This document shows, one piece after another, positions 1-50,120 of a stretch of DNA of 64,000 bases. The translations under genes and the position numbers were made by a program. Origin of the DNA: Pseudomonadota bacterium (GTDB lineage: Bacteria > Pseudomonadota > Alphaproteobacteria > Micavibrionales > UBA2020); the NCBI GenBank assembly GCA_021845905.1, contig JAJZVA010000012.1, positions 20,931-84,930 on the forward strand, read 5' to 3'. Numbering within the stretch: position 1 is the first letter of the stretch; each line of letters starts with the position of its first letter. The notes under the pieces were generated by a model. The model saw nothing but the letters and a program-made list of their open reading frames with translations, was not told the origin of the DNA and made no database searches.

Positions 1-1649
1 GCGACATGTGCAGCATCATCGTGACATGGAACCCGACGACCAACGGCCTGACGCAGGGCGTGCTGACGGTGGAGCACTCCGGCAAGGGCGGGCTGGTGCA
101 GACGGCGTTGCGCGGCACCTTCCAGCCGCCGCCTGCTTCCGTGGTGGCGAAAGATGCGAATGCAAAAGTAAATATTTCTCCCAAAACGCTCGATTTCGGC
201 ACGTCGTCCGGTGGCATCCCGCTGGTGCGGTCGGTGCTGGTAAGCAATAACTCCGCTCAGAATGTCGAGATATGGAACGTCGATATGGATGTCTCCAGCG
301 AGTCCGGATTTTCTTATAGCTCTCAGTGTCCTGAGACGCTCAGGCCAGGAGAAAGTTGCAATATACTGGTGACTTGGAAGCCGACCAGCAAAGGTTTGGC
401 GCAAGGGGTTTTGGTCGTTCAGCACTCGGGCAAGAGCGGAATAGTCGAGTCTGAGGTCAAGGGTGTTTATCAACCCGCGGACAACAGCTCCAATAACAAT
501 GTCGGGCAAATCGTCGCGTCTCCTGAAACTTTGGACTTCGGCAGCTCTCCCGGAGGAATTTCGGCAGTCCGCTCGGTTATTTTCAACAATCAGTCGGGCA
601 ATAGCATCGATATAAAGAAAATCGTTCTTGATGTTCCCGACCAGTCTGGGTTTACCTACAAATCCGCTTGCCCGGCGACGTTGCGGTCCGGTGGCGCCTG
701 CAATATTTTCGTGACGTGGAACCCGACGACGCCAGGTCTGGCTCAGGGCGTTCTTGTGATCGACCACACAGGTGGCAGCGGTATGACGCAAGTGAATATC
801 GAGGGTACCCTGAAACCGCAGTCCGGCAAGGTTGCGGCCATTTATCCCAATGCGATGCCTGACCGCGGATTGCTGGTTTCGGATAAGGAAAAAATCAATT
901 TCGGTTCCGGCGTGAAGGATGAGGCCGCGATTACGACCACGTTGGTCAATGCGGGAAGCTCGGCCTTGACATTGAAGAGCATAGATCTTTCCGGCGTTGA
1001 TGACGGCCTCGATCTGTCCGGCAACGGATGCGCTCCGGGAACGGTATTGCAGCCGGGCGCTGCCTGTCCGCTGACGATCTCATGGCTGCCAAGACACAGC
1101 GGACAGATACTGGATTCCATACAAATCATCCATACAGGCGCGCGCGGCGTTCTGGTGATTCCGATAACCGGATCCGGAGATGCTTCTGTGGATACGTCCA
1201 ATGCCAATAGCGGCAACGTGATGTCGGTGCCGTCGACAAACGCGGGTTCCGGCAATCAAAGTCAAAAAACTTCAAAAACTTCCGGAGCGGCGTCAGCCGT
1301 AAATAAAGGTCCGTCGATGAAGCAGATATTCGCGGGCTATACGGTTTCTTCGCATGCGGCGTCGAGCGCCGTCATTGACGGCCCTGCTGGCAGCTATGTC
1401 GTGCGCGACGGGCAGAGTCTCATTATCTCGGGCGTTGACTGTTCGGTTACGGTTGTTCCTGCGGGCGTTATTCTCAGCAATAGCGGAGATAAAGTGCTGT
1501 TGCCGTTTGACAGTTCATTCAACTATCTCTCCTCTGATGCGAAAAATTCAACCACCGCGTCAAGCGATAAACCTTCATCCGCTTCTGCCGCGGCATCTCT
1601 TTTGCCTCCCAGTCTGACCGCGCCCGCAAAGCGGAGGAAAGCGCCGTGA
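1..1649 (+). CDS. Pilus locus protein with ASH-type repeats and a PilP-like C-terminus (5' partial)
   Basis: The reading frame is open to the left edge, so the true start lies outside the window. The visible 548 residues carry four related segments of about 100-115 residues (the first one partial). Each has a DFG strand (TLDFG or INFG) and most have a cysteine pair before a V-T-W-x-P-T strand and a GVL-x-x-x-H-x-G ending. This is the layout of ASH / choice-of-anchor-D immunoglobulin-like repeats, known from periplasmic and surface proteins. After a Ser/Asn-rich linker, residues about 440-500 form a compact domain (GYTVSS, GPAGSYVVRDGQ, then a hydrophobic GV-x-L strand) resembling the PilP/GspC periplasmic fold; that resemblance is an inference. 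A Ser/Pro/Ala-rich tail ends in basic residues. The stop overlaps the GTG start of the downstream ATPase, so the two are probably translationally coupled. A role linking inner-membrane pilus assembly to an outer-membrane secretin is plausible but unproven. Confidence 0.7.
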   Translation, partial: DMCSIIVTWNPTTNGLTQGVLTVEHSGKGGLVQTALRGTFQPPPASVVAKDANAKVNISPKTLDFGTSSGGIPLVRSVLVSNNSAQNVEIWNVDMDVSSESGFSYSSQCPETLRPGESCNILVTWKPTSKGLAQGVLVVQHSGKSGIVESEVKGVYQPADNSSNNNVGQIVASPETLDFGSSPGGISAVRSVIFNNQSGNSIDIKKIVLDVPDQSGFTYKSACPATLRSGGACNIFVTWNPTTPGLAQGVLVIDHTGGSGMTQVNIEGTLKPQSGKVAAIYPNAMPDRGLLVSDKEKINFGSGVKDEAAITTTLVNAGSSALTLKSIDLSGVDDGLDLSGNGCAPGTVLQPGAACPLTISWLPRHSGQILDSIQIIHTGARGVLVIPITGSGDASVDTSNANSGNVMSVPSTNAGSGNQSQKTSKTSGAASAVNKGPSMKQIFAGYTVSSHAASSAVIDGPAGSYVVRDGQSLIISGVDCSVTVVPAGVILSNSGDKVLLPFDSSFNYLSSDAKNSTTASSDKPSSASAAASLLPPSLTAPAKRRKAP

Positions 1650-3478
1650 GCAGTCAGCAGGACAGGGAAGAGTATCTCAAAAAACTGGGGCTTCACCGGC
1701 AGCAAGACGTGTTGCCGCCCGAAGGAAGAAAAAACAAGGATCGCCGCCAGAGCGACAAGGGGCCGGTTGGCGGATTCGAGCGCCGCGTCGGAGACCGCCG
1801 CAAGACGCGTTCTTCGATCGGCCGCGAGCGTTATCTTGACATGGTCCTCAAGGAGCGCGCTCTTTTTGCGCAACAGGGCTTTTCCCGTTCCGCGGAGCAG
1901 CTCCTCAGCGCGTCCGGCGCGGGGACGGAGAACGAAACCGTCGCGGGCGAGCGCGAAAGCGCGACAGGCGACCAGTTGCGCGCCTTGCTGCCGACGCAGA
2001 CGTGGTTGCCTTTGAACATCCATCTCGTCAATCTCGACAAGGGCGTTTTGACCGTCGCGCCGCTCCATGAACTGACGGAACGGCAGTCGCAGAACCTCAT
2101 GAATGCCGCCGTCCGCTCCGGCTTCAAGGTAGAGCGCGTGGAAATGGAGTTGTGGGATCGCGCCGATCTGCTCCGCACTTTGCAGGCGGTTCACGATCTT
2201 TCTGCTGACCGTTGCGAAAAGACGCTGTCGATCTGGCTCAACGATCTTGATAACGGTCTTTTGCTCAATCAGTTTCAGCGTGACTTGCTGGCGGAAGCCC
2301 TGCAAATGCGCGTATCGGATATTCACCTCGTGCAGGACAACGCGCCGGACGCGCCGAACTGGATCAAATACCGCGTCGATGGCGATTTGATTCCCATCCA
2401 CCTTCTGCCCGCAGAGGCAATGGCGCGTCTCACGACATTGCTGAAGCGCGACGCTGGTTTGAACTTCGGCGACCGTTCGACACCGAAAGACGGACGCTTC
2501 GGTTTCGTCTGGCAAGGCCGCTCGGTCGACGTCCGTGTCGCCGCCGGCCCGCAGGCGCAGGACGGTGAAAAGCTCACGTTGCGTTTGCTCGATCGCGCCG
2601 GCCTCAAAAGTTTCGAGGAATTGTTCACCCGCTATCCGGAAGTCTCCGATCATATGGCGCGTTTGCTGGCGCCGGAAATCAAGGGTGGCGGCGGGCTTAT
2701 CCTGATGTCGGGGCCGACCGGCTCGGGTAAATCCACGACGCTTTATGCCTGCGTGCTCGAAATCGACCGCCGCCGCCGGCATGTTCTGACGATCGAAGAT
2801 CCGATCGAGTATGAAATGCGCTATGCCACGCAATGGCAGGTGACGCAGGCCACTGGCGCGGGGCGCGAATTCGCCGATCTGATCCGCGCGGCGATGCGCC
2901 ACGACCCTGATTATATCGTCATTGGCGAAATGCGCGACATGTCGACCGTCGAAACCGCTCTGAAGGCGGCAGAATCAGGCCATACCGTCATCTCAACCAT
3001 TCACGCGGATACGGCGGCGCAAACGCTGGAGCGCCTGCGCTCCTTCATGCCGCCGGAACGCGAGCGTTCATCGACTTATACGCTGTCGCAGCAGATCCGC
3101 TGCGTTTTGAACCAGCGTCTCGTGAAAACCCTGTGTCACGCCTGCAGCATAAAGACGCAGGCGAAAGACGCCTTGTCTCAGCAGCAGATGGAATTGCTGG
3201 AGCTGGAGCCGGAAACGAACGTCCGCACGCACAATCCGTCTGGATGCGATTTGTGCAACCGGACGGGGGTTTTGGGCCGTACGCTGTTGCTCGAGGCGCT
3301 GATGATTTCCACGCCGCTCGCGAAACGGGACCCTATCTTTCATGCGCTGATGCACAATGTCGGCGATGTCATGCATCAGGAAGGCGTCTCGTACATATCG
3401 CGCAAGCAGGGCCTTCTGTGGCTTGTCAAGGACGGGCTGATCGATCCCAAGATCGCGCTTGTGATGATGGAGGCGTGA
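1646..3478 (+). CDS. Type IV pilus / type II secretion assembly ATPase (PilB/GspE/PilQ family)
   Basis: A 610-residue hexameric secretion ATPase that would power pilus extension or pseudopilus assembly at the cytoplasmic face. Visible motifs: Walker A GPTGSGKSTT at about 356-365, an Asp box after it (TIEDPIEYE), a Walker B-like DPDYIVIGEMRD at about 420-431, and a His box (TVISTIHAD). A zinc-binding tetracysteine follows, CHAC near 496 and CDLC near 533, which is typical of PilB/GspE extension ATPases and absent from PilT retraction ATPases. The N-terminal 60 residues are unusually charged and Arg-rich. The GTG start at 1646 sits inside a GTGA overlap with the previous stop and has a GGAGG site at about 1634, so the start is well supported. 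The next gene is a GspF-type platform protein, as expected. No PilT-like partner is visible in the window. Confidence 0.93.
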   Translation: MSSQQDREEYLKKLGLHRQQDVLPPEGRKNKDRRQSDKGPVGGFERRVGDRRKTRSSIGRERYLDMVLKERALFAQQGFSRSAEQLLSASGAGTENETVAGERESATGDQLRALLPTQTWLPLNIHLVNLDKGVLTVAPLHELTERQSQNLMNAAVRSGFKVERVEMELWDRADLLRTLQAVHDLSADRCEKTLSIWLNDLDNGLLLNQFQRDLLAEALQMRVSDIHLVQDNAPDAPNWIKYRVDGDLIPIHLLPAEAMARLTTLLKRDAGLNFGDRSTPKDGRFGFVWQGRSVDVRVAAGPQAQDGEKLTLRLLDRAGLKSFEELFTRYPEVSDHMARLLAPEIKGGGGLILMSGPTGSGKSTTLYACVLEIDRRRRHVLTIEDPIEYEMRYATQWQVTQATGAGREFADLIRAAMRHDPDYIVIGEMRDMSTVETALKAAESGHTVISTIHADTAAQTLERLRSFMPPERERSSTYTLSQQIRCVLNQRLVKTLCHACSIKTQAKDALSQQQMELLELEPETNVRTHNPSGCDLCNRTGVLGRTLLLEALMISTPLAKRDPIFHALMHNVGDVMHQEGVSYISRKQGLLWLVKDGLIDPKIALVMMEA

Positions 3479-3487
3479 GAACGGAAC

Positions 3488-4711
3488 ATGCAGCAATGGA
3501 TTGCGGAATATACGATTGATTCCCCATCAGGCGCCAAGGTGGTCACGGAATCCTATTACCTGCCTACCGTCGCCGACGTGCGCAACGAGATCAGCAAGCG
3601 CGGCGGCTATGTCCTGACGATCCGTCCGCACGAGCGTTCCGCGGTAGAGCGGTGGATGGCGCGTTCGAGCTGGTGGCAGGTGCAGTTGTTGCGCGGCATT
3701 CAGTTCAGGTCGACGGTGACGTCTCCGGGCGTCGCGCTCTGGCGCCTGATTCAGTCCGAAACCAACCCGAAGCGGCAAAATATCCTTTCGCCCGCGCGCG
3801 AAGCGCTGTCACGAGGCCTTGGGGTCATCGATGCCTTGCGAGCGCTGAATATTTTCGACCACGGCACCCTCGCCATTCTCGCCGCGAGCGAGCGTAGCAA
3901 CCGCCTTGCGGAAGGCATTCCGCACGCCATTCAAAGCATCACCAACAAGCGCAAGAACCGCAACGCCATCATGCTGACGATGTCGTGGGTCGGTTTCGAT
4001 ATTCTCTCGATCGTGCAGGGGATGTTCTGGGGCAAGGGAAAAATCATCGGCTGGTTCAAAAGCCACCCGCCGCACGATCCCGTCGCGCTGGCGAAATATA
4101 CCGTGGTTGTAGGGCGTCTCCAGTTTTTGTGGGGGTTCCTGACATGGCTTGCGATCGGTATGGCCGTCGCGATGGCCTGGATCATCTTATCTTTCTGGAA
4201 CAATCGCGGGAAAAAAGATTTCCCAGCCGCGCGGATCGTGCGCGGGATACCGCTGATCGGCGCTTACTTGCGCGATCTCGGCTTTTCCGATAGTACGGCG
4301 GCGGCGGCGCGGATGTTGCGCGGGCGGGTTCCGATTGCGGATACGCTCATGCAGGCTTCTGAAGCGACGACTTTTCCGGAGGTGGCGCAATACTGGCTTG
4401 GCGCGCGGGAAGATCTTTCCCGGGGGGTCAGTCTCGGCGCGGCGCTCGACAAGGATCCGCTTACCAAAGGGGAACGGATGGAGCTTGCCGCCGTTGCCGA
4501 CCTTGATCAGGTCGCGACGGTTATGGATTCGATCTCCGACATGCGCCAGCAGGCCTCGAAGATCAAGCACAACCTGATTGTCTGGGCGGCGATGATTCTC
4601 TCCAGCTTGTATCTCGTGATCGCCTTCGGCAGCGCGATTTACGCCCTGACAGTCATGAACATGAGCATGGACAGCATGATGAACCAGTTCTTGCCCGGAG
4701 TAGGAGGATAA
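3488..4711 (+). CDS. GspF/PilC/PilR-like inner-membrane platform protein
   Basis: A 407-residue polytopic protein that would form the inner-membrane platform contacting the ATPase. The C-terminal third looks like a T2SF domain: an amphipathic helical bundle (about residues 260-370, with ARMLRGRVPIADTLMQA and LSRGVSLGAALDKDPL) followed by a long terminal membrane helix (LIVWAAMILSSLYLVIAFGS). The N-terminal half is less typical. It has a helical bundle around 95-155, then one clear hydrophobic segment near 215-240. The stretch between (FGMFWGKGK-like, residues 170-205) is only weakly hydrophobic. Family length is about 350-410, so it is full length. The gene starts 9 bp after the ATPase and ends 2 bp before the next gene, indicating one operon. 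Confidence 0.85.
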   Translation: MQQWIAEYTIDSPSGAKVVTESYYLPTVADVRNEISKRGGYVLTIRPHERSAVERWMARSSWWQVQLLRGIQFRSTVTSPGVALWRLIQSETNPKRQNILSPAREALSRGLGVIDALRALNIFDHGTLAILAASERSNRLAEGIPHAIQSITNKRKNRNAIMLTMSWVGFDILSIVQGMFWGKGKIIGWFKSHPPHDPVALAKYTVVVGRLQFLWGFLTWLAIGMAVAMAWIILSFWNNRGKKDFPAARIVRGIPLIGAYLRDLGFSDSTAAAARMLRGRVPIADTLMQASEATTFPEVAQYWLGAREDLSRGVSLGAALDKDPLTKGERMELAAVADLDQVATVMDSISDMRQQASKIKHNLIVWAAMILSSLYLVIAFGSAIYALTVMNMSMDSMMNQFLPGVGG

Positions 4712-4713
4712 CG

Positions 4714-5649
4714 ATGACAACACCAGCAGCGGAAACAGGCGGAGCGGCGGTTCGTCCGAGCGGAGGCATATCGTCCGCGACTGGCATCGGGCGAATGGAT
4801 ACGCCTTATGCGGTCTATAAGCCTTATCTTCCGACAGAGCTTATCGGCGGATCCATCCCCTATATCGCAGGCAAGGAAGACGAGGGCGTATGGAACGCCG
4901 CGGCGCAGGCCTGCGGTACGGAGCGCGTCCATTATTGCTATACGGTGGATGATGGACGTTGCTGGTATCTCGCGACGCCGTCTTCCGCACTGGCCAGCAA
5001 TCCCGACAGCTGGTGTCCCCTGGCTTCGGCATTGCCGGGAAACAGCGAATACTGGGACAAGCAGACGGTTTACATTTACGAGAGCGAAGGCGCGGCCGGC
5101 GCGCTTCGCTGGGATCAGGACACGGGCCGCATGCAGATTTATCTCGGCGGCGCGCGCACCATCCTGCCGCGCATCCAGAGCATGGAGGCGAACTTTGTGA
5201 CCATCAACGCCGAGAACGCCAAGCCCGTGCCGTGGAAAAACAGAGCGCTCAATCAGGAGCGCCTTGCGCGCATGCTGGTCAAGGGGATGTTTTATGTGGG
5301 TACTCTATCGATAATCTTTTCGTTGCTGGTCTGGGTAGGCGCTTACGCGCTGGCGAACAATCTGACGCCGAAGCTCGATCAGGCGCGCGCCGTCGCTTCC
5401 GCGGCGACGAACAGCCTCATGGTGGATGCCGCCAATGCCCTGCAAGTCAATACAGACAAGTATCTGGCGCGGATTATCGCGCTTTTGAACATGAACAGCA
5501 GTTTTGGCGGCGTTCTGACCCGTTACGAGGTCAAGGACGGAAAGGTCGAGTGGACAGCCTTGATCCCGAGCGCCGTACAGCCCGGGCAGCTGCATGCCAA
5601 GGCAATCGGCATGAAGGACGGGATGGTCGAGATAGAAGGAACCTATTGA
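4714..5649 (+). CDS. Single-span pilus-assembly membrane protein, function unassigned
   Basis: 311 residues. A soluble N-terminal region of about 190 residues contains four or five cysteines (AQACGTERVHYCYTVDDGRCW and SWCPL). One membrane helix follows at about residues 190-215 (VGTLSIIFSLLVWVGAYAL), then a helical stalk and a small alpha/beta domain at 250-311. The topology, cytoplasmic domain then membrane helix then stalk then periplasmic domain, is that of GspL/PilN-type alignment proteins, but I see no sequence signature that proves it. An AGGAGG site lies at about 4703-4708, directly before the ATG, and the gap to the previous gene is 2 bp, so the start is secure. It is the last gene before a 139 bp gap that carries a CtrA-type box. 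Confidence 0.75.
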   Translation: MTTPAAETGGAAVRPSGGISSATGIGRMDTPYAVYKPYLPTELIGGSIPYIAGKEDEGVWNAAAQACGTERVHYCYTVDDGRCWYLATPSSALASNPDSWCPLASALPGNSEYWDKQTVYIYESEGAAGALRWDQDTGRMQIYLGGARTILPRIQSMEANFVTINAENAKPVPWKNRALNQERLARMLVKGMFYVGTLSIIFSLLVWVGAYALANNLTPKLDQARAVASAATNSLMVDAANALQVNTDKYLARIIALLNMNSSFGGVLTRYEVKDGKVEWTALIPSAVQPGQLHAKAIGMKDGMVEIEGTY

Positions 5650-5651
5650 TG

Positions 5652-5666
5652 TTAACTTTTCGTTAA
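5652..5666. promoter_or_regulatory. CtrA-type box TTAA-N7-TTAA upstream of the pilin block
   Basis: TTAACTTTTCGTTAA matches the full CtrA consensus TTAA-N7-TTAA exactly. It lies 2 bp after the previous stop and 122 bp before the next start. The only good -10 in the gap is 66 bp downstream, so this is not standard -35 activation geometry. CtrA controls pilA in Caulobacter, which makes the site plausible; binding is inference. Confidence 0.55.
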
Positions 5667-5731
5667 TGAAAGCGGGAGAGATGAAATGCCGATTAAGGTT
5701 ATTCTGACATGATGTTGCCACAATTAGCTAT

Positions 5732-5737
5732 TATAAT
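5732..5737 (+). promoter_or_regulatory. Candidate -10 element for the second half of the pilus locus
   Basis: A perfect TATAAT stands 52 bp before the next ATG, with no convincing -35 at 16-18 bp (TTGCCA is only 11 bp away). A perfect -10 with a poor -35 is the pattern of activator-dependent promoters. It would give the pilin genes expression separate from that of the ATPase operon. Confidence 0.4.
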
Positions 5738-5788
5738 GGGATCTGTAAATGGTATGGAAAGCATGCCTGATATACGGAGTTTATTTTG

Positions 5789-6352
5789 ATGGACTTTAAA
5801 CAGTTCAACATGGCGACGATCCAGAAATACACCAGTCCTCAGGCAATCAAGGACTTTGACAGGTTTCTGGACAATCTGCCGGTCAGCGTGGGGTATAATG
5901 CCCTGATCGCTGCGGGCATTATCTGCCTGATGGGTGCGGTTTCCGTATGGTTTTCATCCGTTGAACTGGGCAAGGTCAGCAAGTTGCGCGCGGATCTGAC
6001 CAACGTTCAGGCGCTCAAGCCCCCCGTGCCGGTTTTGAAATATCTCCCCGTCAGTCAATCTCTCCTTACGCCCTTGACTAAAAAAATCGCAGCCACGTTT
6101 CAGGGGGTGACGCTGATCCCCGGAAATGGCGAGGTCAAGATAACGGCGCAGGATACGGATTACTTTCCTCAGTTTCTTGCCGCCATCAGCTATCTGGAAC
6201 ATGGCGGGAGAAACTGGAAAGTCAGCACGTCGCACCTTTGCGTGGGAACGGACTGCAAGACGGCAAAACTTTATGTCGATCTTAAGGTAAACGTCGTCGA
6301 ATTCAGCGAACCGGAGGCCACGGTTCCAAGCGCCGGTAAAAAAGCAAGGTAA
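5789..6352 (+). CDS. Small single-span assembly protein (PilO/GspM-like topology)
   Basis: 187 residues from the ATG at 5789, which has CGGAG about 10 bp upstream; an in-frame TTG directly before it is less likely. The N-terminal 35 residues are cytoplasmic, followed by one membrane helix at about 37-57 (YNALIAAGIICLMGAVSVWF), a short stalk and a periplasmic alpha/beta domain containing one Cys pair (HLCVGTDCKTAK). The tail is Lys/Ala-rich. Size and topology fit PilO/GspM-type proteins that pair with a PilN/GspL-type partner, here perhaps the preceding gene. No family motif proves this. It heads the sub-block that continues with the four prepilin-like genes. Confidence 0.7.
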   Translation: MDFKQFNMATIQKYTSPQAIKDFDRFLDNLPVSVGYNALIAAGIICLMGAVSVWFSSVELGKVSKLRADLTNVQALKPPVPVLKYLPVSQSLLTPLTKKIAATFQGVTLIPGNGEVKITAQDTDYFPQFLAAISYLEHGGRNWKVSTSHLCVGTDCKTAKLYVDLKVNVVEFSEPEATVPSAGKKAR

Positions 6353-6468
6353 TGGCACAAGGGGGGTATTTAAAGATGAAACTAGAAAATATCCCGCCGA
6401 GTATGTAATCTGAAGAGAAGAGTTTTTCTAAGATGCACGATTTTATTCATCCAAGAAGGGGTTTGAAA

Positions 6469-7197
6469 ATGACAGGGAAAACAACGAGGAAAGATCGTAG
6501 CCAAAGCGGCAATGCGCTCTTCCTGATTTTGATCGCCGTGGCTTTGTTCGCGGCGCTCTCTTACGCCATCACGGAATCCGGACGCGGCGGCGGCACGATC
6601 GACAAGGAAACGGTCATGATCACGGCGGGCGAGGTTGTCCAGCAGCCTGCGGCCGTCAATACCGCCATGACGCGCATGATCATCACAGGGACGCCGGCGG
6701 CCAGCATCACGTATACCGGCGCAGCAAGTCCAAATGACGTGTTCGACAGTTCGAATGGCGGCGGCGGCGCAACCATCATTCCCCCGCCTTCTGCGGCTTG
6801 CGTTTCCGCGGCGGACTGCGCTGCATGGATTTATCCAGGCGAAGCAAGTTCGACAACCGGTCTTTTCGTGGCGGGTGTGGGCACGGCGGCGCCAGATCTG
6901 CTTGCCGTTTTGCAAGGCACTTCCGGCGTGACGCTCGATGTTTGCAACCAGATCAACAAAGGTCTCGGCTTTTCGCAAACGACATTCGCCACCGCGCCGC
7001 CTGTTGATAAAGTCGCGGCCGTATGGCAGTGGACGACGGCAGGCACAATTCAGGCATGGCCGGTCACGGCAAGCAGCGCCACGACGGTTTATGACGACGG
7101 CGATACGACGCCCGTTCTTTCGGGGCAGGATTTCGCCTGTATCCAGAACGGCACGGGTGGCGTTTACGCTTACTATCACACGCTTGTCGCCCAATAA
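6469..7197 (+). CDS. Prepilin-like protein 1 (tandem paralogue)
   Basis: 242 residues. I chose the ATG at 6469 because AAGAAGGGG ends 7 bp before it; an upstream ATG at 6433 lacks a site. A basic 14-residue leader (MTGKTTRKDRSQSG) ends in Gly and is followed by a hydrophobic helix NALFLILIAVALFAALSYA, the class III signal architecture cut by prepilin peptidase. The mature +5 residue is Leu, not the usual Glu. The globular part holds several cysteines and ends in a motif shared with two neighbours, GQDFAC then YYHTLxxQ. It is closely related to the next gene: the first 48 residues from the cleavage site are almost identical in protein and DNA, showing recent duplication or gene conversion. Whether it is a major pilin or a pseudopilin cannot be told. 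Confidence 0.8.
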   Translation: MTGKTTRKDRSQSGNALFLILIAVALFAALSYAITESGRGGGTIDKETVMITAGEVVQQPAAVNTAMTRMIITGTPAASITYTGAASPNDVFDSSNGGGGATIIPPPSAACVSAADCAAWIYPGEASSTTGLFVAGVGTAAPDLLAVLQGTSGVTLDVCNQINKGLGFSQTTFATAPPVDKVAAVWQWTTAGTIQAWPVTASSATTVYDDGDTTPVLSGQDFACIQNGTGGVYAYYHTLVAQ

Positions 7198-7231
7198 TAA
7201 AAGCCACATAAAACCGAAAGAAGGGTAAAAA

Positions 7232-7948
7232 ATGACCGCAGATAAAATTCAATACAATAAGGAAGAGCGTGGCAACGCACTTTTTCTCATTCTAATTGCC
7301 GTTGCCTTGTTTGCGGCGCTTTCTTACGCCATCACGGAATCCGGGCGCGGCGGCGGCACGATCGACAAGGAAACGGTCATGATCACGGCGGGCGAGGTTG
7401 TTCAGCAACCGGCAGGCGTCAGAACCGCCGTCACGCGCATGGTTGTCACCGGCACTCCTGTGGCGAGCATTACGTTTACCGGCGCGGCCACGCCGGATGA
7501 CGTGTTTGACAATTCGAATGGCGGTGGCGGCGCGACCAACGTTCCGCCTCCGACCGCCGCTTGCGTCGCGGCCGCGGACTGCGCGGCATGGGTCTACATC
7601 CCGGCGACGTCGACGGGGGTCGGAACTTATGTCTACAATGTCGGCACAAATACAGGCGATGAAGCGCTGGCTGTTCTGCAAGGTACGAGCGGCGTGACGC
7701 TGGACGTTTGCAATCAGATCAACAAGGGGCTCGGTTTTTCGCAAACGACGTATGCGACAGCGCCGCCGGTCGGAGAAGGCGGGCCTGTAAAATGGGTCAC
7801 GCCGCCCACGGGTGGTTCCTTTTCCGCGACAGGAAATAACTATACGGTCAAAAGCACGGACACTTCCTTGGACGGTCAGGACTTTGCCTGCTTCCAGAAT
7901 ACAACAGCCAACCTCTATGCCTATTATCATACGCTCTACGCTCAGTAA
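7232..7948 (+). CDS. Prepilin-like protein 2 (tandem paralogue)
   Basis: 238 residues, start supported by AAGAAGGG about 6 bp upstream. The leader MTADKIQYNKEERG precedes the same hydrophobic helix as prepilin 1. The two proteins share the block from the helix through the TIDKETVMITAGEVVQQPA segment, the segment LAVLQGTSGVTLDVCNQINKG, and the ending GQDFAC...YYHTLYAQ. They diverge mostly in surface loops (residues about 120-145 and 180-205), which fits a pilin with a conserved core and variable exposed loops. Glu5 is again missing. It follows prepilin 1 by 34 bp in the same operon. Confidence 0.8.
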   Translation: MTADKIQYNKEERGNALFLILIAVALFAALSYAITESGRGGGTIDKETVMITAGEVVQQPAGVRTAVTRMVVTGTPVASITFTGAATPDDVFDNSNGGGGATNVPPPTAACVAAADCAAWVYIPATSTGVGTYVYNVGTNTGDEALAVLQGTSGVTLDVCNQINKGLGFSQTTYATAPPVGEGGPVKWVTPPTGGSFSATGNNYTVKSTDTSLDGQDFACFQNTTANLYAYYHTLYAQ

Positions 7949-7957
7949 TACGGGGTT

Positions 7958-8671
7958 ATGATAATGACAGGCGGCTTGCGTTCAGGCATGACGAAAAAAG
8001 AAGAACCTTCCCGGATGGGAAGGTTCTTCCGTTTTGCGAACCATCAACAGAAAGGACAACAGGGCAACGCCTTGCTGTATGTGCTTCTTGCGGTGGGGTT
8101 GCTGGCGGCGCTGACCTTTTATTTCGTTCAGGACAGCAACGAGAATTACGCCACGCAGGATGCCATTCATATTTCCGAAGAACTTTATGCGCAGGTCAAT
8201 ACGATCAGGTCGGCGATCTCCGAATGCACGCTCGATTACCCCAACGGCGGGCCGGATGTCAACGGCGACGGGCTTATCAGCAGTTCCGAGAACCCGAACA
8301 ACCCTTACCCGATCGATCCGTTGAGCCCGAATGTGACGTACGAAACGGCCGGTTGCTCGAAAACATCCAATGCCGCGAACTGCATCATCGCCTCGACGAA
8401 CGACGATGTGGGCAATTTGTCCTGCCCCGGCGCAGGTATTGGTTACGAATGGCTGTTTTCCGGTACCAACAATCAGGGCCGTTACCTGCCGCCGACGCCG
8501 AACGGATTTAGCGCCTGGACCTATTCCAATACGTCATCGGGCGTATCCATCTCGATAACGGCGCCGAGCGATGTCGCGGCGAATGACGCGCTGACCCGCC
8601 TTTTGAGCAAATTCACCTCGGGTCAGGCCAGCATCAGCGGTCAGGTTTTTACAATCTATCTGAAGCAATAA
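7958..8671 (+). CDS. Prepilin-like protein 3 with an EF-hand-type loop
   Basis: 237 residues from the ATG at 7958. Alternative in-frame starts are 7988 and 8015; the last would leave a 17-residue leader like those of the neighbours, but none has a good ribosome site. A class III-like signal ends at ...QQKGQQG before NALLYVLLAVGLLAALTFYF. Residues 100-111 read DVNGDGLISSSE, a full match to the EF-hand loop pattern D-x-N-x-D-G-x-I-x-x-x-E, so calcium binding is likely. It lacks the GQDFAC ending of the others but has four cysteines in the middle and ends in Gln. A 13 bp perfect hairpin lies over the start region. Probably a minor pilin or pseudopilin. Confidence 0.75.
   Translation: MIMTGGLRSGMTKKEEPSRMGRFFRFANHQQKGQQGNALLYVLLAVGLLAALTFYFVQDSNENYATQDAIHISEELYAQVNTIRSAISECTLDYPNGGPDVNGDGLISSSENPNNPYPIDPLSPNVTYETAGCSKTSNAANCIIASTNDDVGNLSCPGAGIGYEWLFSGTNNQGRYLPPTPNGFSAWTYSNTSSGVSISITAPSDVAANDALTRLLSKFTSGQASISGQVFTIYLKQ
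8000..8029 (+). terminator. Strong hairpin across the start of prepilin gene 3 (attenuator or terminator)
   Basis: GAAGAACCTTCCC and GGGAAGGTTCTTC form a perfect 13 bp stem with a GGAT loop, preceded by six A and followed by CGTTTT. It could partly terminate transcription from prepilins 1 and 2 or hide the translation start of prepilin 3 (the ATG at 8015 begins in the loop). The T-run is short, so complete termination is doubtful. Confidence 0.6.
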
Positions 8672-8709
8672 ATCGTTGCGCTGAAGATAAACGCAATATA
8701 GAGCGGTCT

Positions 8710-9378
8710 ATGCAATACAAGTCCTGTTACAACCGTCAAGAAGGCAACGTTCTTTTTCTGATCCTGATCGCGGTGGCATTGTTCGGCGCGCTGGCCTTCG
8801 CTTTGATGGAAAGCAGCCGTAGCACCGGGCAGGACGTCGATTACGAGACGGTGCGGCTTGAAGCCGGACAGGTGACTTCCGAGGCTTCCGCCGTCAAACA
8901 GGCCGTCCAGCGCATGGTCGTCACCGGCACGTCACCCGCCTCGATTACGTTTACGGATGCCGCGACGCAGAATGATGTCTTCTATTCAGGCTATGCAACA
9001 AATGTGTCTCCGCCGCCCGCGGCGTGCAACAGCGCCTGCACGGGGTGGGTTTATAAGAGTTTCACCGACATGACGCACGGCCTTTTCGTCGGCGGCGTGG
9101 GAACGGACGCGCCGGAAATTATTGCCGTCCTGCCGAATGTCTACGACGACGTTTGCGACCAGATTCAGAAGGGGCTGGGCTTTTCATCGATGACGCCGCC
9201 CGTTCAGGACACGACCGCTTTCGACTGGACCAATATCACGAACACGATTTCGCAGCCGGGAGGGCTCAAAGGCAGCGCCTCGACCGTTTGGGCGCCGACG
9301 CTGACCGGACAGGACTTTGCCTGCGTGAATAACCTGAATACCGGATATTTCTATTATCACGTCCTGCTTCCGCAATAA
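8710..9378 (+). CDS. Prepilin-like protein 4
   Basis: 222 residues with a 12-residue leader (MQYKSCYNRQEG) before NVLFLILIAVALFGALAFAL. It is a more distant paralogue of prepilins 1 and 2: it keeps the ETVRLEAGQVTSEASAVKQAVQRMVVTGT segment pattern, the DVFxS block, VCDQIQKGLGFS and the GQDFACVNN...YYHVLLPQ ending. Glu5 is absent here too. It ends the pilus block and converges with the histidine kinase gene 6 bp away; no terminator is visible between them. The ribosome site is weak (GAGCGG). Confidence 0.78.
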   Translation: MQYKSCYNRQEGNVLFLILIAVALFGALAFALMESSRSTGQDVDYETVRLEAGQVTSEASAVKQAVQRMVVTGTSPASITFTDAATQNDVFYSGYATNVSPPPAACNSACTGWVYKSFTDMTHGLFVGGVGTDAPEIIAVLPNVYDDVCDQIQKGLGFSSMTPPVQDTTAFDWTNITNTISQPGGLKGSASTVWAPTLTGQDFACVNNLNTGYFYYHVLLPQ

Positions 9379-13884: not shown

Positions 13885-14529
13885 ATGATGCGTCACATTT
13901 TAAGACCTTCCGGGAAGGCGCTTTTATCCGCTTTTTTGACTTTTGGTGTGGTTTTTTTCTGCGTGGCGACGGCTTCTGCGGCGTCGGGCCCGCAAGTCAT
14001 TTTAGGATGCGATCCGGCAGTCTGGCAGGCCATGACGGCAAAAGCGGAAGCGCAGGTTGCGTATGATACGGCGGTGACAGACGAGCTGGTCAACAAGCCG
14101 GATAGCGTTCTGACGCTGACATGCTTTAGCGATGCGGCGGGCGTTTCCGCGAAAAACGGCGGCGCGATTTTTTCCGGAGATTTTACCACGCAGTTGCAGA
14201 CCATCATGCCGGTGACGGGCGGCGGCACCTATAACTGCACGCAGATCGGCACGCTTGAAACCCAGATGATCAATCAGGGGGTCGATACGGGCGCTCCGTT
14301 CGCCACGTTCAACGATCTCATGAGCGGCACCGCGCCGGCAGGCGGCGGAACGGATTTCAACAACGGGTGGAATGAGAGCCAGGCGGCAGGGGTGTTCGGC
14401 AATCTCAATACCGCCGTGAGCGCGATGACGGCCGCGCAGACAAAACAGTATCCGGCTTTGAATTTCTCTGCGGCGAAGTCTTCCTGCGATGTTTTGAAGG
14501 CGGCGGGCATTGTCACAACATGTCCATAA
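13885..14529 (+). CDS. Secreted protein of unknown function, paralogue of the next gene
   Basis: 214 residues. A signal peptide of about 33 residues (hydrophobic LLSAFLTFGVVFFCVATASA) precedes a mature protein beginning near GPQVILGCDP. The first about 85 mature residues align with the next gene: G-C-D-P, a helical segment rich in Ala, D-x-A, P-x-S-x-L-x-L-T-C-F, then S-A. The rest contains Cys residues near 112, 203 and 213 and Gly/Thr-rich loops. I recognise no family. The pair is spaced by 10 bp and so is co-transcribed. Secretion to the periplasm or outside is inferred from the signal peptide only. Confidence 0.7.
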   Translation: MMRHILRPSGKALLSAFLTFGVVFFCVATASAASGPQVILGCDPAVWQAMTAKAEAQVAYDTAVTDELVNKPDSVLTLTCFSDAAGVSAKNGGAIFSGDFTTQLQTIMPVTGGGTYNCTQIGTLETQMINQGVDTGAPFATFNDLMSGTAPAGGGTDFNNGWNESQAAGVFGNLNTAVSAMTAAQTKQYPALNFSAAKSSCDVLKAAGIVTTCP

Positions 14530-14539
14530 AGGATATATG

Positions 14540-15718
14540 ATGAAGAGAAACGTTCTTTTCATTCTGCTGGTTTTTGTTTTTAGCGGTCTTTCCGCAGTGG
14601 CCGGTTATGCCGGCACGACGCCCAATCTTGATCCCGGTTGCGATCCGCAGATGATGCAGATGCTGACAGATCAGGCCAACGCCGTGCGTTCCCGCGACAA
14701 AGCCTATGAAATGGAAATCATCAGCCGCGAGCCTTCAACGCTTTATCTCACTTGCTTCGATCAGGCGATGGCCTTGAGCGCGCGGCTCGGCTATATCTTC
14801 TCCGACAACGTGACGCCCAATCCGCCGCCACCCAATACACTGGCCTTCAAGGACGCTTTGCTTTATCCCGACTGGGGCGCGACACACAGCCTTGCCGTCG
14901 ATCTGGACAACGTGGTGACGCCGATACTCGACCAGTGGCTGGGTAACACGCCGACGGCGGTTCCGGATCCCGGTAGCGGTGCAGGGGGATCGAATATAGC
15001 TCCCACAAACCCCGCCGTTCAGAACTTCTATCCGAATTGGACGACGCCCAATGCCTTGAGTAATATGACGCAGGATATCCGCACGCAGATATCCAATATC
15101 CAGTCCCAGCAAAGCAGTCTGCAAACGCAGGTAACGAATTACAACAATCTGGTCGTGCAAATAGACAATCTGGTCAACAGTTTTCCCTCGCTGTCGTGGT
15201 CGACCCTGCCGGACAACCTGACGACGTACAATACGGACATCTCCAATCTGAACAGCATGATTTCAAGCATACAATCAAGCGAAAATTCAACCATCGGGCC
15301 GCTTTTAAGTAACATTAAAAACGATGTTTTCAACGCCAAGATGATGTGCACCAATCTTGATGACGTATGGAACGGCGCGGGCAATTTCGCCAACCCGAGC
15401 AACTCGGCTACGAGTTTTTATTCCCCGGAAGGGCCGTATAATACCCTGACGCCGTTTTATTCAATGGCGGATTTGCTGAACTATAATGAGGGGGCAAGCA
15501 CCATGACTACGCCGTTGAAGGTTCCTCCCAATAATACCGGCGTCGCGACGTTTTATTTCAATACCGAGCTAACCCGCAATACCGACAATGGCTTGCTTCA
15601 AACCGCGCTGAACGATCTTATCGGGCCGTTGTCGAAGCCCGGGTACAGCACGCTGTGGCCTGCGCCGCCGACGTTGCCGTCGTACTTCCAGACGCAAGAC
15701 GTTATCAATCAGATGTAG
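14540..15718 (+). CDS. Secreted coiled-coil protein of unknown function, paralogue of the previous gene
   Basis: 392 residues from the ATG at 14540 (AAAGGA about 6 bp upstream; another ATG lies 3 bases earlier). Signal peptide MKRNVLFILLVFVFSGLSAVAGYAG. The mature N-terminus repeats the pattern of the previous gene: G-C-D-P-x3-Q-M-L-T, D-x-A-x-E, P-S-x-L-x-L-T-C-F-D-x-A, S-A. A middle segment (about 180-250) has heptad-like hydrophobics and many Gln/Asn/Ser (IRTQISNIQSQQSSL), probably a coiled coil. The C-terminal third is Asn/Thr/Pro-rich. No family recognised. It might be part of an envelope-spanning or secreted complex with its partner; this is a guess from co-location. Confidence 0.7.
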   Translation: MKRNVLFILLVFVFSGLSAVAGYAGTTPNLDPGCDPQMMQMLTDQANAVRSRDKAYEMEIISREPSTLYLTCFDQAMALSARLGYIFSDNVTPNPPPPNTLAFKDALLYPDWGATHSLAVDLDNVVTPILDQWLGNTPTAVPDPGSGAGGSNIAPTNPAVQNFYPNWTTPNALSNMTQDIRTQISNIQSQQSSLQTQVTNYNNLVVQIDNLVNSFPSLSWSTLPDNLTTYNTDISNLNSMISSIQSSENSTIGPLLSNIKNDVFNAKMMCTNLDDVWNGAGNFANPSNSATSFYSPEGPYNTLTPFYSMADLLNYNEGASTMTTPLKVPPNNTGVATFYFNTELTRNTDNGLLQTALNDLIGPLSKPGYSTLWPAPPTLPSYFQTQDVINQM

Positions 15719-49675: not shown

Positions 49676-49715
49676 AAAAATAAATGGAGGCAGTTCTGTT
49701 GCTAGGCCTGCCTCC
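49676..49715 (-). terminator. Hairpin and T-run at the 3' end of the tmRNA gene
   Basis: On the minus strand GGAGGCAG, a 14-base loop and CTGCCTCC are followed by ATTTATTTTT. Probably the transcription terminator of ssrA, and may also shape the 3' end of the coding RNA. Confidence 0.8.
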
Positions 49716-50030
49716 ACGCCCCACCTCCTCTATTACTAGAAGAGGGATTGAAGTGCTAACTCGTCAGGACGCGATTAAGCGACGAGACGGAGTTGACCCA
49801 TTGCTGGGCTGTTGTCGTTAGCATTTATAGTTTTTAGCCCGATAACGGTGGATACCATGCCGAACGAAAGCAACTGCCTTTACTACGCACGTCGATCCTG
49901 TTTCGGCCCCATACCGGAAAGGTCTTTTGAAGACCTTAAACCTTGTTAAATGGTGGAGCCGCCGGGTACCGCCCCCGGGTCCGTCTCGCCTATTCCGCAG
50001 CACGTTTATCGTCATAGCCAGCAAGCTGGC
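49680..50030 (-). ncRNA. ssrA: Circularly permuted two-piece tmRNA
   Basis: Rescues stalled ribosomes and tags the nascent chain. On the minus strand the acceptor piece comes first and ends in ...CGGCTCC-A-CCA at 49951. A 40-base segment to be removed follows, then the coding piece starts at 49910 with GGGGCCG. GGGGCCG and CGGCTCC pair over all seven positions, with a G3.U70 wobble, the alanine identity element. The tag frame runs from 49822 to 49775: ANDNSPAMGQLRLVA then TAA, starting after the usual charged Ala. The 5' end of the acceptor piece is approximate. The permuted layout is known from Alphaproteobacteria, cyanobacteria and some Betaproteobacteria. No protein gene occupies 49579-50207, which this RNA and the next promoter fill. 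Confidence 0.95.
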
Positions 50031-50120
50031 AATTCCCATTATCGCGCAGGTTACGAAAAAAAGCCAGAAAAACATGCCGAAACCCGGAAAATAAGTCTAT
50101 TTTAAATGGTAATTATAAAT

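Follow-up and report, generated by a model that had tools for sequence, protein, structure and literature searches.

A putative type IV filament machine of Micavibrio-type Alphaproteobacteria whose locus-encoded pilins lack Glu5

Can a bacterial type IV filament be built from subunits that all lack the glutamate at position 5 of the mature protein (Glu5)? This question is raised by four tandem prepilin-like open reading frames (ORFs) in a 64,000-nucleotide stretch of a Micavibrionales genome (UBA2020; assembly GCA_021845905.1, contig JAJZVA010000012.1). The stretch, referred to here as the window, spans bases 20931-84930 of C17, a contig of a draft genome of 2.42 Mb. Glu5 is almost invariant in bacterial pilins and needed for homopolymers (PMC4471445), and its role has been described as incompletely understood (PMC10628169). 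The four ORFs represent two pilin families, named A and B here; the labels L, G and C denote a locus, the genome of a relative and a contig of the own genome, respectively. As judged from sequence, A and B probably form part of a distinct bacterial type IV filament machine of Glu5-free pilins, with A as the main subunit and B as a GspK-like minor subunit.

All four ORFs encode a basic leader ending in Gly at position -1, followed by a hydrophobic helix without Glu5, as a first, sequence-only reading of the window had described. In the A family, the leaders comprise 12-14 residues and the mature proteins begin with NALFL or NVLFL (Table 1). Acidic residues are absent from mature residues 1-21 of all four window proteins. 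The sequence-only reading had also placed Leu at position 5 of every protein, which is correct for the ORFs at 6469, 7232 and 8710; the ORF at 7958-8671, the B gene, encodes Tyr at this position. The ending GQDFAC...YYH...Q, noticed earlier in three proteins, is found in exactly the three A-type proteins and is missing from B. For copy 1 of A, an alternative in-frame ATG is located at 6433, with AGAAGGGG upstream being better placed for 6469, and the start codon of B is uncertain, with several in-frame ATGs available. None of the four proteins has a significant match among the Pfam and NCBIfam models. The AlphaFold2 model of A shows a helix (residues 16-37), a low-confidence Gly-rich break, a second helix (44-72) and then a beta-containing head; the model of B shows a single 56-residue helix and an alpha/beta head. 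A Foldseek search with B gave nothing usable, and searches of PDB sequences with A and B profiles returned chance hits only.

The lack of Glu5 extends to the related loci. Family A has Asn1 and Leu5 in 78/78 members, an invariance that is inflated because some A loci were found by patterns taken from the A helix. Relatives found by profile and family B are free of this bias; Tyr5 is present in all 58 B sequences, a family marked by Ser1 and Tyr5. Among 195 distinct N-termini from all loci, position 5 is Leu, Tyr, Phe, Ile, Thr or Pro and in no case Asp or Glu (0/195). In both families Gly-1 is invariant, Lys and Arg account for 21-24% of leader residues, and residues 1-21 are uncharged. The A helices of more distant operons begin, after the Gly, for example with IAIGPILFVVAIL (Pro5) or FAIGTILLAV (Thr5), and the B-like helices there have Ala5. 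At E <= 0.1, the N_methyl and Flp pilin models matched none of the 78 A proteins and none of the 58 B proteins. A scan of all six reading frames for prepilin signals, covering the window, the region upstream of it and 79 fetched public loci with flanks of up to 10 kb at both ends, revealed no Glu5 pilin linked to the locus, the only two Glu5-type ORFs (in L061 and L085) being located in other contexts. The earlier statement that every subunit lacks Glu5 holds for the subunits encoded at the locus, and the Glu5 major pilin that would have been its counter-evidence was not found beside any of the 79 related loci.

The four prepilin ORFs represent the 3' end of a type IV filament operon that starts outside the window. 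It encodes an A24 prepilin peptidase, a receiver-only regulator, a secretin, an ASH-repeat protein, an ATPase, a GspF-like protein, two bitopic proteins and the pilins A and B. An ATPase, a GspF-type platform protein and prepilin-like subunits are found in one operon with an A24 peptidase beside them, the combination by which type IV filament systems are recognized. The sequence-only reading had suggested looking nearby, outside the window, for a dedicated prepilin peptidase, and one is present (L006:13589-14098). Its Asp motifs, AYRDVKEYILPN and GLGDVKL, read as expected; the A24_N_bact domain found in the PilD-type protein on contig C9 is missing from it. P311, the first bitopic protein, is kept at a constant position in the operon, which suggests a PilN/GspL role. 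The gene of the PilO-like protein is always immediately 5' of pilin A, even where the block is separated from the ATPase. Elsewhere, the own genome contains a further GspE/PilB-class ATPase on C3, a Tad-type locus that includes an Flp pilin on C15 and a PilT/PilU/PilD region on C9. No PilT-type ATPase is encoded in the operon.

The ASH-repeat gene comes second after the secretin and begins upstream of the window (from L006:16572), across an assembly gap. A run of N lies inside this gene where the window starts (positions 1 to roughly 120) and L006 ends (gap in L006/L007), with near-identical repeats on both sides; the repeat copy number at the gap is uncertain and may reflect the assembly. The ASH/HYDIN-like repeat protein (window 6-1649, L006:16572-18455) is a constant member of the operon, adjoining the secretin, and its C-terminal end reads as a putative PilP/GspC-type domain. 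Repeats of the ASH/HYDIN-like kind are not known to be components of a pilus machine.

The machinery proteins score below the curated cut-offs of the named types. The ATPase remains below the cut-off of every NCBIfam equivalog (GspE, 241 of 630 bits; PilB, 224 of 676; TadA-type, 67 of 373), with GspE as the top-scoring type, and the platform protein reaches 35 of 424 bits against the curated GspF model. For the secretin, the best scores are those with MshL (120 bits, cut-off 250) and PilN (106 bits, cut-off 288), both below the cut-offs; the scores with GspD (75 of 351 bits) and PilQ (35 of 284 bits) are lower. These scores bear on the possibility that the locus encodes a type II secretion-like device, in which A and B would make no more than a short pseudopilus in the periplasm, driving protein export, and no surface filament. 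The ATPase with its highest score for GspE, the operon without a PilT-type retraction ATPase and the GspK-like B are in line with such a device, for which the components present would suffice for extension. However, GspG, H, I, J or C homologs were not recognized at the locus, MshL and PilN fit the secretin with better scores than GspD does, and diversified heads on dozens of A paralogs (see below) fit surface display better than a piston. A secretion device is rated quite improbable, and it would still retain the main claim of a Glu5-free polymer.

The operon is conserved among the relatives of the window's genome. A profile of the four proteins has matches in 80/94 genomes of the order; with broader profiles, matches were found in 11/385 genomes of a class-wide sample, four of these 11 belonging to the order, and in 2/398 from the phylum (one being the own genome). 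Named matches include Micavibrio species and metagenome-assembled genomes of Micavibrio aeruginosavorus, from which the order is taken as Micavibrionales. The eight core genes (secretin, ASH-repeat protein, ATPase, GspF-like protein, P311, PilO-like protein, A and B) are all present and in the same order in 43 of the 79 loci, and in 38/79 together with the regulator and the peptidase; many of the incomplete loci end at contig ends. In a few genomes, the genes of the PilO-like protein, A and B stand together, apart from the ATPase block. Related machinery is also retained in more distant operons, L177, L178 and L179, which come from other Alphaproteobacteria. There, A is the sole pilin gene of L178, and L179 lacks B and carries two A copies. 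In all these operons, the ATPases group together and separately from the C3, PilT-type and TadA-type ATPases of the own genome, with moderate support and long branches. A lone A gene with a Micavibrio-type helix in L067, titled Acidobacteriaceae bacterium palsa_252, was rejected as a sign of wider distribution, as no machinery accompanies it; it is probably due to misbinning, or else to a stray transfer.

The paralogs of A indicate which part of the protein is maintained. One relative, G021, contains about 45 A-like matches across 2.3 Mb, several of which have stop codons or are shortened. In 18 distinct copies from this genome, the 20-residue helix occurs as just two protein variants. At the DNA level the helix averages 76% identity, and where residues are identical, 63% of their codons differ; the heads average 30% identity. 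A helix that is identical in protein despite different codons, next to divergent heads, shows that the exact Glu5-free helix of A is under strong purifying selection and that the heads are diversifying. Recent gene conversion as the means of spreading the helix was rejected, given the low average identity of the helix DNA. The Gly-helix pattern is well above chance, as it occurs in the 195 distinct N-termini and in these 18 paralogs with their differing codons. The helix could in principle be a mere membrane anchor for exported heads, with A and B not polymerizing at all. It is fully hydrophobic, a Gly-rich linker follows it, and orphan copies are distant from the machinery. Nevertheless, an anchor would need neither residue-by-residue conservation over 20 positions nor an invariant Gly-1, neither an adjoining prepilin peptidase nor a fixed position by an extension ATPase and a secretin, which leaves this explanation highly improbable.

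Further observations concern the distribution of A-like genes. The G021 set (L136-L164; contigs CATLPD0100000xx) includes leaders as short as 5-6 residues and looks like a display repertoire that is expanding and decaying. G028 and G030 contain over a dozen A-like genes each. Three solitary genes for Glu5-free pilin-like proteins are located in housekeeping surroundings of the own genome (C13:118913, C20:55567 and C11:109972; L012, L013 and L014). The one on C11 lies about 0.6 kb from a gene for an Flp-like Glu5 pilin, on the opposite strand. The idea that orphan A-like genes are tied to a second Flp-like gene (own genome C11, G093) proved inconsistent and was dropped.

An explanation that retains Glu5 is that A and B are only minor or tip subunits and that the bulk filament consists of a Glu5 pilin from elsewhere, either T4a-type (N_methyl) or Flp, with which they co-assemble. 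The tip subunits GspK and Streptococcus sanguinis PilA lack Glu5 (PMC10628169, PMC9934059), and B resembles GspK. In contrast, none of the 79 loci has a Glu5 pilin linked to it. The five-contig genome G066, assessed as 100% complete, contains the full operon (L183) together with nine A/B-type matches, and no N_methyl match. A blank result for this genome, obtained by searching the DNA with a strict Glu5-pilin pattern, was left unused, as the pattern missed all four N_methyl hits of the own genome. In addition, A is the only pilin family of L178 and L179, which makes an exclusive tip role, the other objection foreseen in the sequence-only reading, unlikely for A. Three tandem copies and up to about 45 paralogs with one frozen helix would be unexpected for a tip subunit, and the other systems of the own genome come with separate peptidases, ATPases and secretins. 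The supply of a Glu5 pilin in trans is thereby made less likely, and the co-assembly explanation as a whole is considered unlikely.

Several points nevertheless weigh against a machine of Glu5-free pilins with A as its main subunit. N_methyl pilins are encoded in 92/94 and Flp pilins in 89/94 of the relatives' genomes, and G066 still has Flp matches. Known pilins in which Glu5 is mutated fail to form homopolymers, yet they can enter filaments of the wild type (PMC4471445). Gene order and copy number are the basis for giving A the main and B the minor role, and the invariance of A is inflated as described above. Finally, a Foldseek search with A found no significant solved relative, the top six of its seven weak matches being Clostridioides difficile PilA1 with E > 1.

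The machine of Glu5-free pilins could operate as follows. The short A24 peptidase would cleave the prepilins A and B after Gly-1, and the GspE/PilB-like ATPase and the GspF-like platform would drive the mature subunits towards the secretin, so that either a pilus or a pseudopilus within the periplasm would result. A would be the main subunit and B a minor one, probably tip-forming or capping in the manner of GspK. Since neither A nor B has Glu5, packing would have to rest on the helix itself: subunits would assemble without the usual bridge between Glu5 and the N-terminus of a neighbor and rely on the near-invariant helix (Asn1, Phe4, Leu5, Phe13, then the Gly-rich break), a situation similar to that of archaeal pili without Glu5. 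Asn1 of A is a candidate for handling the N-terminal charge, but it is not retained in the distant operons. The scattered A paralogs, with the same helix and different heads, may provide alternative subunits for one machine. Lineage and head diversity suggest a function in adhesion, surface or prey contact, or secretion. Known tip subunits without Glu5 have no subunit above them (PMC10628169), an explanation that cannot account for a main subunit without Glu5. Glu5 appears important for type IV pilin methylation and not for cleavage (PMC4471445); a system in which Glu5 is missing along with the N-terminal peptidase domain is therefore coherent. With the operon conserved, Glu5 absent and the helix selected, the idea of a distinct class with other packing rules, put forward in the sequence-only reading, is supported as far as sequence goes. 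The stronger version, namely a separate bacterial filament class with a wholly Glu5-free polymer, a Glu5 to N-terminus bridge that is not universal, and dozens of alternative subunits per machine in some relatives, falls somewhat short of being probable and is proposed tentatively.

Table 1 Features of the filament operon, with window positions unless a locus label is given
Feature	Position	Strand	Description
A24 prepilin peptidase	L006:13589-14098, ~4.3 kb before the first base of the window	divergent	169 amino acids; Pfam 2.4e-14
Receiver-only response regulator	L006, outside the window		
Secretin	L006, outside the window		636 amino acids
ASH/choice-of-anchor-D repeat protein, C-terminal part	6..1649	+	Pfam ASH 1e-21; NCBIfam choice_anch_D 9e-28
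GspE/PilB-class extension ATPase	1646..3478	+	610 amino acids; Pfam T2SSE 5e-77
GspF/PilC-like inner-membrane platform protein	3488..4711	+	Pfam T2SSF 1.7e-12
P311	4714..5649	+	bitopic, cytoplasmic N-terminal part, one transmembrane segment near residues 190-213; no family match
PilO/GspM-like bitopic protein	5786..6352	+	no family match; putative, assigned by sequence reading only
Prepilin A, copy 1	6469..7197	+	leader MTGKTTRKDRSQSG; mature start NALFLILIAVALFAALSYAIT (NALFL), Leu5
Prepilin A, copy 2	7232..7948	+	leader MTADKIQYNKEERG; mature start NALFLILIAVALFAALSYAIT (NALFL), Leu5; AlphaFold2 pLDDT (predicted local distance difference test) 84
Prepilin B	7958..8671	+	leader ...NHQQKGQQG; mature start NALLYVLLAVGLLAALT (NALLY), Tyr5; GspK-like N-terminal helix; AlphaFold2 pLDDT 83
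Prepilin A, copy 3	8710..9378	+	leader MQYKSCYNRQEG; mature start NVLFLILIAVALFGALAF (NVLFL), Leu5; diverged copy, kept in the genus

Some other features of the region can be recorded. Upstream of the operon, L006:850-2547 and 2682-6299 are predicted to encode a two-partner secretion pair, an FhaC/ShlB-like transporter and, after it, a large protein resembling filamentous haemagglutinin, which contains repeated segments and is also interrupted by a gap. Within the window, a permuted alphaproteobacterial transfer-messenger RNA is located at 49683-50070 on the minus strand (Rfam alpha_tmRNA, 233 bits). Two adjoining genes (13885-14529 and 14510-15718) encode secreted-looking proteins of unassigned family that have a Cys-containing N-terminal motif in common (LTLTCF / LYLTCF).

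If the proposed machine exists, a natural bacterial system without Glu5 and with a peptidase lacking the methylation-linked N-terminal domain would make the role of Glu5 testable. A survey of the superfamily concluded that few new families remain to be found, and it required a recognizable major pilin (PMC6668835). As A and B match no pilin model of the libraries, a survey of this type could overlook them. Micavibrio are obligate epibiotic predators, and type IV pili are thought to be involved in prey contact (PMC3189940). GMV0902, 0903 and 1530 of M. aeruginosavorus are expressed pilus genes (PMC3189940). A literature search found no paper describing a Glu5-free pilus system of Micavibrio-type Alphaproteobacteria.

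With the type IV filament superfamily, comprising type IVa pili (T4aP), type IVb pili (T4bP), MSH, Com, the type II secretion system (T2SS) and Tad, the locus shares a class III-type signal with Gly-1, an A24 peptidase, a GspE/PilB-class ATPase, a GspF-like platform protein and a secretin. It differs from the named types in that all its subunits lack Glu5, in that its ATPase, GspF-like protein and secretin remain below the curated cut-offs, and in that no pilin model, N_methyl and Flp included, matches A or B. Canonical bacterial type IV pili have Glu5 in the main subunit, a feature found in neither A nor B. The equivalog levels of GspE, GspF and GspD for T2SS, and those of PilB and PilQ for T4aP, are not reached by the locus proteins, and PilT/PilU proteins are encoded on C9 and not in the operon. 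MSHA-type and type IVb systems provide the best scores for the secretin, below the cut-offs, and no further MSH- or T4bP-specific component was recognized at the locus. The major pilins of both carry Glu5. A short A24 peptidase without the A24_N_bact domain and an alphaproteobacterial host are shared with Tad/Flp systems, which encode TadA and TadB/C and have Flp pilins of about 60-80 amino acids with Glu5. In contrast, the locus has no ATPase at TadA level and no Flp match in A or B, and the own genome possesses a separate Tad locus. The tip pseudopilin GspK also lacks Glu5, and 23/58 B sequences match its model weakly (best E 5e-4). The B protein of the window, however, has no GspK match, and Glu5 is missing from every subunit at the locus rather than from one. 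A itself was rejected as a GspK relative, with a match in 1/78 members (E 0.04). Glu5 is often absent from archaeal type IV pilins and archaellins as well (PMC4471445), but no sequence relation to them was found, and the locus has an outer-membrane secretin and a bacterial-type ATPase. Since the tested scores that define the types are not reached, the locus is best described, from its sequences, as a putative variant of the type IV filament superfamily that belongs to none of the named types.

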